From positions 62,843 to 126,842 of the forward strand of contig NZ_QLIX01000002.1 of NCBI RefSeq assembly GCF_003258945.1: a stretch of DNA of 64,000 nucleotides, given 5' to 3'. The notes under the pieces are model-generated. The model saw only the letters and a program-made list of their open reading frames with translations, made no database searches and had not been told where the DNA came from. Positions within the stretch are counted from its first letter, which is position 1; the number at the start of each line of letters is the position of its first letter. Below are positions 30,041 through 33,606 of the stretch, in pieces. This DNA is from Roseicella frigidaeris (GTDB lineage: Bacteria > Pseudomonadota > Alphaproteobacteria > Acetobacterales > Acetobacteraceae). Position numbers and translations under genes: made by a program.

Positions 30041-30224
30041 TCCGCCCCGCGGCCGATCACAGCCGTCCGAGGCCGGGGCGTGCCCGGGCCTCGGGCGGCG
30101 ACAGGGCCGGGCGGGGGCTTTAAAAGCGAGTCCCTGCCGGGCGGATCTCGGTGCGCCTGGGCCGTGCCTTGGGCCGACCGTCCCGGGGCCGCTATGCCAG
30201 CCGCATGCCAGAGGATAGGTGCCG

Positions 30225-30836
30225 ATGTCCGCCAAGCCGCTCGCCGAACAGCCCATGGCGCAGGATCGCCCGAGCCGCAGCGAGGCCGAGGCGGCGGTCC
30301 GCACCCTGCTGCGCTGGGCCGGCGACGATCCCGGGCGGGAGGGGCTGCTCGACACGCCGGCGCGCGTCGTCCGCTCCTACGAGGAGTTCTTCGCCGGCTA
30401 CGGGATCGACCCCGTGGCGCTGCTGGAGCGGACCTTCGCCGAGACCGAGGGCTATGACGAGATCGTCCTGCTGAAGGACATCCGGCTCGAGAGCTATTGC
30501 GAGCACCACATGGTGCCGATCATCGGCATCGCGCATGTCGCCTATCTCCCGGCCAACCGGGTGGTCGGCATCAGCAAGCTCGCCCGGGTGGTGCATGCCT
30601 ATGCCAAGCGGCTGCAGATCCAGGAGAAGCTGACGGCGCAGATCGCCAACACCATCGAGTCGGTGCTGCAGCCGCGCGGCGTCGCGGTGGTGATCGAGAG
30701 CGAGCATCAGTGCATGACTACCCGCGGCGTGCACCAGCACGGCGCCAGCATGGTGACCAGCCGCATGCTGGGCGCCTTCCGCGACGACCCGAACACGCGG
30801 CGGGAGCTGATGGCGCTGATCCGGTCGCGGCACTGA
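30225..30836 (+). CDS. folE: GTP cyclohydrolase I
   Basis: It makes dihydroneopterin triphosphate from GTP for folate synthesis. The 203 residues include the zinc ligands Cys92 and His95 (YCEHHMVP) and Cys163 (HQCMTTRGV), and the GTP-site segment [27 protein letters not shown] 30225 lies 9 nt after GAGGA; a GTG at 30219 is in frame. The next gene begins 14 bp downstream. Confidence 0.96.
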
Positions 30837-30850
30837 CCGGCCGCCCGGCG

Positions 30851-31807
30851 ATGCCGCCCGACGCGCCCGGCGGCGCGATGCCGCCCGACATGCCCGGCGG
30901 CGTGGGGCCGATCGACGACCCTTCCGTGCTCGCCGAGCTGCGTGCCGTCTTCGACCGCTACGAGCGCGCCATCGCGGTGAATGACGCGGCCGTGCTCGAT
31001 GCCAGCTTCTGGGCCGATCCACGCACGGTCCGCTTCGGCACCACCGAGATCCTCTACGGCATCGAGGCCATCCGCGCCTTCCGGGCGAGCGTCGCGCGCT
31101 ACGCGCCGCGCGCGGCCCGGCGCGTCCACATCACCGCCTTCGGCCGCGACTTCGGCTGCACCCACCTGGAATACCAGCGCACCGATACCGGGCTGGTCGG
31201 CCGGGAGACCAAGATCATGGCCCGGCTGCCCGGCCTTGGCTGGAAGGTGGTCTCGGCGCATGTCTCGCTCCTCGCCGGCAGCGATCCCGGGCGGGTGGCG
31301 CGGGAGCCGGCGGCGGACGGCACAGCGAAGGAGGGGAGCATGGCAGGCAGGATCGAGGCGCGGCTCAGGGAGCTCGGCATCGCGCTGCCCGCGCCGGCGG
31401 CGCCGGTGGCGAACTACATCCCGTTCAACCGGGTCGGGACCCTCGTCGTCGTCTCCGGCCAGATCCCGCTGCGCGACGGCAAGATCGCCTATGCCGGCAA
31501 GCTCGGCGCCGGCGTCTCGGTCGAGGAGGGCCAGGCGGCGGCGCGGCTCTGCTTCGTCAACCTCGTGGCGCAGGTGAAAGCCGCCTGCGAGGGCGACCTG
31601 GACCGGGTGCGCCGCGTGGTGCGGCTCGGCGGCTTCATCGCCGCGCCGCCCGACTTCACCCAGCATGCGGTGGTGATGAACGGCGCCTCGGACCTCGCCG
31701 TCGAGATCTTCGGCGAGGCCGGGCGGCATGCCCGCAGCACCATCGGCGTGCCCTCGCTGCCCGGCGATGCCGCGGTCGAGGTCGAGGGCCTGTTCGAGAT
31801 CGCCTGA
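30851..31807 (+). CDS. HpxZ-like domain fused in frame to a RidA domain
   Basis: A single open frame of 318 residues with two domains normally found as separate proteins. Residues about 20-145 match the AtzH/HpxZ family (NTF2-like), with FWADPRTVRFGTTEILYG, GRDFGCTHLEY, GRETKIMARLPG and VVSAHVSL; HpxZ is linked to oxalurate and ureide breakdown. Residues 164-318 match the longer RidA (YjgF) subgroup: NYIPFNRVGTLVVVSGQIPL, with the substrate-binding Arg in HARSTIGVPSLP. No stop codon separates them. A strong ribosome-binding site before the internal ATG 31340 suggests RidA is also made alone. The first start could be ATG 30851, 30878 or 30890; none has a good ribosome-binding site. Confidence 0.75.
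   Translation: MPPDAPGGAMPPDMPGGVGPIDDPSVLAELRAVFDRYERAIAVNDAAVLDASFWADPRTVRFGTTEILYGIEAIRAFRASVARYAPRAARRVHITAFGRDFGCTHLEYQRTDTGLVGRETKIMARLPGLGWKVVSAHVSLLAGSDPGRVAREPAADGTAKEGSMAGRIEARLRELGIALPAPAAPVANYIPFNRVGTLVVVSGQIPLRDGKIAYAGKLGAGVSVEEGQAAARLCFVNLVAQVKAACEGDLDRVRRVVRLGGFIAAPPDFTQHAVVMNGASDLAVEIFGEAGRHARSTIGVPSLPGDAAVEVEGLFEIA
31328..31342 (+). promoter_or_regulatory. internal ribosome-binding site and start for free RidA
   Basis: AAGGAGG at 31328-31334 stands 5 nt before ATG 31340, in frame with the fusion. This is the best ribosome-binding site in the neighbourhood and would give a 155-residue RidA protein of normal size. Confidence 0.6.
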
Positions 31808-31829: not shown

Positions 31830-33107
31830 TCAGGCGGCCAGCTCGGCCAGGACCTGCGCCAGCACCCGCGCGCCCTTCGCCAGCTGCTCCGGCGAGGAAT
31901 ACTCCGCCGGGTTGTGGCTGATGCCGCGGCGGCTGGGGACGAAGACCATGCCGCTCGGGCAGAGCGGCACCATGAACTGCGCGTCGTGGAAGGCGCCCGA
32001 GGGCATGCGCTTCGCCGCCAGCCCCTGCGCCGCCGCGGCGCGGGCCACGGCCTCGACCACCGCCGGGGCGAATTCCGCCGGCAGGGCGTGGAAGCGCTCG
32101 GTCACCGCGACCTCGCAATGCCGCACCGCCTGCCGGATCGTGGATTCGATCGCATCGCCGCGCGCGGTCAGCACGGCGGCGTCGGGATGCCGGAAATCGA
32201 TGGTGAAGCGCACCGTCTCGGCGACGCTGTTCGAGCTGTTCGGCGCCACCTCGATGCGGGCGACGGTGAAGCGCAGCACGTCGGTCGGGTCCTCCATCAG
32301 CCGGTTCAGGGCCGTGATGGCGCGCACCATGTCCTGCACCGCATCCCGCCGGGTGGAGAGCGGCGCGGTGCCGGCATGCGCGCTCTCGCCCGTCAGCTCG
32401 ACCAGGAACCAGCGGCTGCCCTGGATGCCGGTGACCACGCCGATATCGAGCCCCTCCGCCTCCAGCACCGGCCCCTGCTCGATATGCGCCTCGACATAGG
32501 CATGCGGCCGCATCCTCTCGACCACGCCGAGCGGGCGGCGCGGGATGTCCGCCTCCAGCGCCAGTTGCTCGGCGAGCGCATCGCCGAAGCGGATGCCCTC
32601 GCCATCCGTCACCGCGTCCCAGGCATCGGGCGGGCTGTGGCCGGCATAGGCCATGCTGCCCATGCAGCCCGGGGCGAAGCGGCCGCCCTCCTCGTTGGTC
32701 CAGGCGACGATCTCGATCGGGTGGCGGGTGGCGGTGCCGGCCTCGCGCAGCGCCTGCACCGCCTCGAGCGCGGCGAGGACGCCCCAGATGCCGTCGAACC
32801 GCCCGCCGGACGGCTGGCTGTCCATATGGCTGCCGGTCAGCACCGGCGGCAGGCCGGGCTCCTTCCCCGCATGCCGCAGGAAGAGGTTGCCGAGCGCATC
32901 GACCGAGGGTTCGAGGCCGATCGCCTCGCCCCAGCCGATCAGCAGCCGGCGCGCCTCGCGGTCCAGCGGGCAGAGGCAGGGGCGGTTGACGCCCGGCGCG
33001 CCGTCGGCGCCGGTGATGGCGCCGAGCCTGGCCATGGCCATCAGCCGGTCCCATTGCCGCTGCCCATCCACCGCCGCCACGGCATTCGGCGCCACGATCC
33101 CGCTCAT
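31830..33107 (-). CDS. M20-family amidohydrolase (allantoate amidohydrolase / N-carbamoyl-amino-acid hydrolase)
   Basis: A binuclear zinc amidohydrolase of 425 residues. Metal and catalytic residues are visible: His94 in GSHMDSQPSGG, Asp105 in GRFDG, Glu139-Glu140 in TNEEGGRF, His208 in EAHIEQGPVLE and a late His in SGAFHDAQFM. HIEQGP is typical of the HyuC/AllC branch. The nearby HIU hydrolase and HpxZ favour allantoate or a ureide as substrate, but carbamoyl amino acids cannot be excluded. It converges with the HpxZ-RidA gene across 22 bp and is divergent from the HIU hydrolase gene. Confidence 0.9.
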   Translation of the reverse strand: MSGIVAPNAVAAVDGQRQWDRLMAMARLGAITGADGAPGVNRPCLCPLDREARRLLIGWGEAIGLEPSVDALGNLFLRHAGKEPGLPPVLTGSHMDSQPSGGRFDGIWGVLAALEAVQALREAGTATRHPIEIVAWTNEEGGRFAPGCMGSMAYAGHSPPDAWDAVTDGEGIRFGDALAEQLALEADIPRRPLGVVERMRPHAYVEAHIEQGPVLEAEGLDIGVVTGIQGSRWFLVELTGESAHAGTAPLSTRRDAVQDMVRAITALNRLMEDPTDVLRFTVARIEVAPNSSNSVAETVRFTIDFRHPDAAVLTARGDAIESTIRQAVRHCEVAVTERFHALPAEFAPAVVEAVARAAAAQGLAAKRMPSGAFHDAQFMVPLCPSGMVFVPSRRGISHNPAEYSSPEQLAKGARVLAQVLAELAA

Positions 33108-33249
33108 CCCGCCCTCATCCGGCTCGCTGCCTCCGCTACAGCGCCGCGGCCGCGCCGGCGTCAAGCAGCCTTGGCGCGGCGCGGGCGGCCCGCGCATCAT
33201 CGCCGGCGCCCGGGCCGCGATGGCACGGGGCAGCCCCGGGAGCGGCGCC

Positions 33250-33606
33250 ATGGCGCATGACAGCTATCTCAGCACCCATATCCTCGACACCGCCCGCGGC
33301 CGCCCCGGCGCCGGCGTGACGGTGGAGCTGTGGCGGCTCGACCCGGAGCCGGCGCATCTCGTCACCACCACCACCGACCGGGACGGCCGCGCCGCCGATC
33401 CGCTGCTGCCGGAGGCGCGGTTCATCCCCGGCCGCTACGAGTTGCGCTTCCATATCGGCGCCTATTTCGCGGCGGCCGGGCTGGCGGCGGAGCCGCCCTA
33501 TCTCGACGTGGTGCCGGTGCGGGTGACGCTCGCGGCCGGGCAGGGGCACTACCACGTGCCGCTGCTCTGCGCCCCCTGGAGCTACACCACCTATCGCGGG
33601 TCTTGA
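33250..33606 (+). CDS. 5-hydroxyisourate hydrolase (transthyretin-like)
   Basis: It hydrolyses 5-hydroxyisourate, the product of urate oxidation, on the way to allantoin. The 118 residues show [17 protein letters not shown] with catalytic His10, [37 protein letters not shown], and the diagnostic C-terminal YRGS. Neither uricase nor OHCU decarboxylase is adjacent, so the pathway is split across the genome. It is divergent from the M20 hydrolase gene. Confidence 0.95.

Follow-up and report, generated by a model that had tools for sequence, protein, structure and literature searches.

The window that we have analysed, a stretch of 64,000 nucleotides from a Roseicella-like genome within the Acetobacteraceae/Roseomonadaceae, carries at 30851-31807 of the forward strand a frame of 318 codons whose translation contains no stop, and which comprises an AtzH/HpxZ-like domain, a linker and a RidA domain of the Rid1 subfamily (318 aa if begun at the ATG at 30851). 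Upstream, on the same strand, lies folE, coding for GTP cyclohydrolase I (30219-30836; Pfam PF01227, E 1e-72), with its stop codon 14 nt ahead of that ATG; a longer frame opening at TTG 30497 was rejected as a start because it overlaps folE out of frame. The first domain of the fused frame (DUF3225, NTF2 fold) spans 30911-31276, and was recognized by Pfam PF11533 (residues 21-142, E 6e-40, 136.3 bits against a cutoff of 27), by matches to the PDB entries 6bjt and 2rcd and by the alignment of its homologues. The second domain occupies 31340-31807, with the YjgF_endoribonc family PF14588 matched at residues 169-307 (E 1.5e-31, 109.7 bits against a cutoff of 35). Between them is a linker of 14 residues (31298-31339), in which the Shine-Dalgarno sequence AAGGAGG (31328-31334) stands 5 nt ahead of the in-frame ATG at 31340. 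Downstream are the gene of an M20 amidase of the hydantoinase/carbamoylase family on the reverse strand, convergent with ridA (31830-33251), and a forward-strand gene for 5-hydroxyisourate hydrolase (HIUH; 33253-33606, PF00576 and TIGR02962 above cutoff). The original prediction had described both the joined domains open from end to end and the strong motif ahead of the RidA start, and our analysis agrees with it on the two points; its fused frame also holds, while ATG 30851 is just one of four candidate starts for the HpxZ part, each without a good Shine-Dalgarno.

The nearest named relatives of the window genome are Roseicella sp. DB1501, R. aerolata and Paracraurococcus. In DB1501 the orthologue, with 90% amino acid identity, has the same in-frame joint and no stop, and it lies in the same gene order as in the window (folE, fusion, M20, HIUH, wrbA, fusA, rfaE). 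Its linker is longer by exactly 9 nt, with 17 residues instead of 14. Since the same stop-free joint is present in this separately sequenced species, a sequencing error is unlikely. An artefact of sequencing or assembly, by which a stop was removed or two loci were joined, might be suspected from the separate genes of nearly all relatives, but the second species shares the joint and its flanking genes at 90% protein identity with a different linker, and both species also have the reciprocal joint described below; we have rejected this explanation, to which we attach a negligible probability.

Search of the relatives for HpxZ-RidA fusions, as the original prediction had proposed, yielded one, that of DB1501. 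No further fusion was found in sweeps of 397 genomes of the family, 385 of the class and 398 of the phylum, which were samples of each rank with E-values set where normally just a two-domain match passes, so that very diverged fusions could escape, nor in a GTDB-wide peptide scan of 84,980 species from which 80 relatives were kept. A widespread fusion is thus rejected within this sampling. The observation that had been named as refuting the proposal, separate genes with a stop in all relatives, was made in every relative examined except DB1501, and so comes near to holding without doing so. Our literature search found no report of an AtzH/HpxZ-RidA fusion. HpxZ-RidA is a young, rare and lineage-specific fusion of two known families.

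How did the two genes come together? In R. aerolata and in a Paracraurococcus, hpxZ and ridA are apart, and hpxZ ends with DPGRVQK(G/A) and a stop codon. There, the row plsX-fabH-ihfA-merR-folE-...-hpxZ continues with a DadA-like FAD oxidoreductase gene and a cold-shock gene, with a DsbA-like gene between hpxZ and the DadA-like gene in R. aerolata, and the unfused ridA belongs to a separate row with the M20 and HIUH genes, followed in R. aerolata by wrbA, fusA and rfaE. In the window genome the dadA orthologue is on another contig (C2), near the genes that precede ridA in R. aerolata and Paracraurococcus. The reciprocal joint consists here of 3.6 kb of the old ridA-upstream genes (79-81% identity), about 2.6 kb of other sequence, and then DsbA-dadA-csp; it is also found in DB1501, with about 2 kb of intervening sequence. 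With both joints present, the two outcomes of a single reciprocal exchange, such as an inversion, can be seen, and a single deletion between neighbouring genes was found insufficient as the sole event. The extra sequence at the reciprocal joint, which lies in the region G000:C2:109000-124000 of the window genome and G003:C12:506000-521000 of DB1501, includes an open frame whose beginning resembles a signal peptide.

The sequence of the linker bears on its origin. In 23 unfused HpxZ homologues the protein terminates at V149 or a few residues from it, close to the beginning of the linker. Both fused species read AREP over the four codons that directly follow GRV. The linker of DB1501 agrees with the ridA 5΄UTR of R. 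aerolata at 15 out of 16 nt that are equally far from the ATG in both (29/51 in total, shuffle p 5e-5), which argues that the linker is largely a former ridA leader; this R. aerolata leader contains an in-frame TAG. The window's own linker, more diverged, matches that of DB1501, and has no significant match to the 5΄UTRs of R. aerolata and Paracraurococcus. As read from these alignments, the exchange, or a later deletion, took out the last hpxZ codons and the stop, which the linker replaces. An in-frame linker free of stops should arise in about one in three or four such joints, and the open frame taken by itself therefore does not argue that the fusion was selected.

The unfused tandem of Dankookia rubra, in which hpxZ (with a TAG stop) is followed after 124 nt by ridA in a different frame, may be an intermediate or an independent arrangement, and both adjacency followed by deletion and direct joining are possible routes. 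In the RidA tree the window species and DB1501 are sisters (support 97/91), the HpxZ tree leaves these two unplaced with respect to each other, and the concatenated tree places Dankookia with bootstrap values of 49 and below; as the trees do not place Dankookia firmly, they do not decide between a shared and an independent origin of its tandem. In Dankookia and Paracraurococcus a glycosyl hydrolase family 1-like gene lies on the opposite strand between folE and hpxZ (L059 4592-5989; L036 6063-7496), and in both fused species no such gene is present between folE and hpxZ (window 30836-30911). The separate genes of the ancestral state, the two reciprocal joints and the retained start can all be read in the sister species, and we see here a gene fusion caught soon after its birth.

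The start of the RidA domain was compared with that of its free relatives. The 57 unfused RidA homologues begin at, or a few residues from, Met 164, encoded by ATG 31340, and in the nearest relatives the unfused ridA is preceded by Shine-Dalgarno sequences at similar spacing, with anti-SD duplex energies of -6.6 to -11.1 kcal/mol. The internal Shine-Dalgarno reaches -12.7 kcal/mol in the window and -9.5 in DB1501, where AAGGAG is preserved. For 240 internal in-frame ATGs of the 38 predicted genes of the window, just one energy is below -12.7, and AAGGAGG 4-9 nt upstream was found at none. The predicted local structure at 31340 is weak (-11.4 kcal/mol). Strong, accessible and conserved, this Shine-Dalgarno with its start codon has the features of an alternative in-frame start. 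Since the linker is largely former ridA 5΄UTR, the putative internal start is the ancestral ridA start, left in place at the joining. Our search of the literature for fused genes that retain an internal ribosome-binding site found no usable parallel. Cas11b of an archaeal type I-B CRISPR system (PMC11899642) likewise gives a long and a short protein from one frame by an internal start; in contrast, the short product predicted here from the sequence corresponds to an ancestrally separate and complete gene, whose start was inherited and did not arise within a longer protein.

Start signals are weaker ahead of the HpxZ part. The four candidates in the window (ATG 30851, 30878 and 30890, and GTG 30902) have Shine-Dalgarno energies of only -1.7 to -5.0 and lie in strong predicted structure (-27 to -34). 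The customary hpxZ ATG and its Shine-Dalgarno are gone, and residues 1-18 of the frame are encoded by two in-frame copies of a 27-nt tandem repeat (30851-30904, 24/27 identical; MPPDAPGGA/MPPDMPGGV) that spans the candidate starts and occurs in no aligned relative. DB1501 and the tested unfused relatives do have an HpxZ ATG with a Shine-Dalgarno, of -6.6 to -9.4. The fusion's own start is therefore poor in the window species, and little or no fusion may be made.

Taken to its end, this would mean that just free RidA is made in quantity and that in the window species the HpxZ part amounts to a leader with little or no translation, as the lack of a Shine-Dalgarno at any candidate, the highly structured start region and the odd repeat would allow. 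We consider this unlikely, while giving it more weight than any other alternative to two products: the HpxZ part is under purifying selection, keeps its invariant residues and has no break in its frame, and re-initiation from the folE stop codon, 14 nt upstream, is possible. With just two sequences compared, those of the window species and DB1501, dN/dS is about 0.11 for HpxZ, 0.30 for RidA and 0.84 for the linker, values that point to purifying selection on both domains and little on the linker. It is quite improbable, on the other side, that the fusion alone is made, as the functional form of both enzymes, with AAGGAGG-ATG as an unused relic. The frame has been retained in both species across the 9-nt indel, as that would require, but the internal Shine-Dalgarno is among the strongest of the window, weakly structured, kept as AAGGAG in DB1501 and equivalent to the start of unfused ridA, and the upstream start is weak in the window species.

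We propose that this is a young fusion at a rearrangement joint that probably gives two products, free RidA and the HpxZ-RidA fusion. The comparison shows that, in the last ancestor shared by the window species and DB1501, a stand-alone hpxZ was joined at its 3΄ end, in frame, to the 5΄UTR of a stand-alone ridA; the hpxZ stop was lost, and the ridA UTR became a linker together with the Shine-Dalgarno and the ATG that it carried. Most ribosomes would now begin at 31340 and produce free Rid1, probably the main product in the window species, and fewer would begin upstream, possibly by re-initiation after folE, and produce the fusion. Because the stop is missing, HpxZ cannot be made free and can exist solely within the fusion. 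AtzH forms dimers (PMC6219798), whereas Rid proteins form trimers (PMC4433059); free RidA could enter mixed RidA trimers with fusion subunits, so that the two symmetries need not clash. One gene with two products, as the original prediction had suggested, is the reading best supported by comparison, through the retained ancestral ridA start. It makes testable how a newly fused gene still supplies its free second protein, and annotation as one fusion protein would hide the likely free RidA.

Do the joined domains keep their activities? The HpxZ domain resembles AtzH of Pseudomonas sp. ADP (PDB 6BJT/6BJU/6D63; PMC6219798), with an NTF2 fold alike, and Foldseek ranked the AtzH structures first (TM 0.88-0.94 over the target). 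The catalytic Tyr22/Arg46 pair of AtzH (PMC6219798) corresponds to Y37 and R61, which do not vary across the 16 homologues aligned, and Arg63, Arg73 and Arg96 are also kept. The full AtzH binding pocket, which includes Gln106 and Gln108, is not: these two residues are E119 and K121 in the clade of the window protein, and Gln/Gln is kept in a stand-alone HpxZ paralogue of the same genome. The window protein further differs from AtzH in that Arg66 is not kept and in its fused RidA, and no atzG or atzE was seen adjacent to its HpxZ part. For the RidA domain, the PDB matches include 3d01 (E 6e-49), PA0814 (9bk9) and 9bkb; PA0814 and ACIAD3089, both Rid1 (PMC5619798), are among the hits and place it in this subfamily (YjgF_YER057c_UK114_like_1; PF14588; PMC5619798, PMC4433059). 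The Arg and Glu of the deaminases are conserved, the Arg invariantly, at residue 132 of the first row of the alignment (131 or 132 of the domain, depending on the row), where it aligns with PA0814, and the active-site Arg on which imine hydrolysis depends is thus conserved. The window RidA differs from these Rid1 proteins in that it follows another domain, at the C-terminal end of a fusion, though with its own start retained. Structure prediction was good for the HpxZ domain and poor for the RidA domain, which was covered by only two rows of the alignment. With the catalytic residues kept in both, each domain probably retains its own chemistry.

What could be the substrate of this chemistry? 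AtzH proper is a decarboxylating 1,3-dicarboxyurea amidohydrolase. The original prediction had linked the locus to ureide breakdown, and a channelled enzyme pair selected for the breakdown of ureides or oxalurate, which could coexist with two products, would be consistent with the adjacent hydroxyisourate hydrolase and M20 amidase genes and with the ureido compound that is the substrate of AtzH (PMC6219798). We give little credence to it: the RidA-M20-HIUH order also occurs with unfused genes, the OHCU decarboxylase, an enzyme of ureide breakdown, lies on a different contig, the Gln106/Gln108 positions are changed, the usual neighbour of the clade is a DadA-like FAD oxidoreductase, and the HpxZ domain scores 123.8 bits against the NCBI oxalurate-HpxZ equivalog NF033625, whose cutoff is 135, although it is of the same family. 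The link to ureide breakdown is weak. The stand-alone paralogue (L002 1528-1917) scores 182 bits, above that cutoff; it overlaps an amidase/allophanate-hydrolase-like gene at that gene's end, and adjoins a hydantoinase/carbamoylase-like gene.

In other genera of the family, the gene of the HpxZ clade usually stands before a DadA-like FAD oxidoreductase gene, sometimes overlapping it, and genes for molybdenum-hydroxylase subunits often precede it. FAD amino-acid oxidases generate imines, which Rid proteins remove (PMC4433059, PMC5619798), and the tested Rid1 members deaminate 2-aminoacrylate and imines made by oxidases (PMC5619798). The imine and DadA-like oxidoreductase context is a more specific functional lead than the ureides, although a lead only, and the pairing of hpxZ with dadA in other members of the family offers a clue to the role of the AtzH-like clade. 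More speculatively, and in our estimate with a low probability, the rearrangement would have replaced the conserved neighbour of hpxZ, a DadA-like FAD oxidoreductase that might produce imines, by an imine deaminase, and a mixture of fusion and free Rid1 would act as a functional complex on the product of a carbamoyl- or imine-forming oxidation; free Rid1 would set the assembly, in which two-fold AtzH dimers would be joined to three-fold Rid trimers. If true, no AtzH/Rid fusion would precede it, and it would point to a pathway shared by two poorly understood protein families. The window genome codes for five other Rid proteins, so that loss of the free Rid1 need not be lethal.

Two observations on the neighbourhoods of these genes complete the picture. 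A row formed by an AtzH-like gene, a DadA-like FAD oxidoreductase gene, often overlapping it, and the gene of a cold-shock-domain protein recurs in the Acetobacteraceae/Roseomonadaceae, and is frequently preceded by genes for CoxL/CoxM-type molybdenum hydroxylase subunits (L076, L079, L091, L106, L118 and L044; about 3 kb on either side of hpxZ). At another locus (L031, G041:C740), a fragmentary second copy of a RidA gene lies directly beside an intact one.
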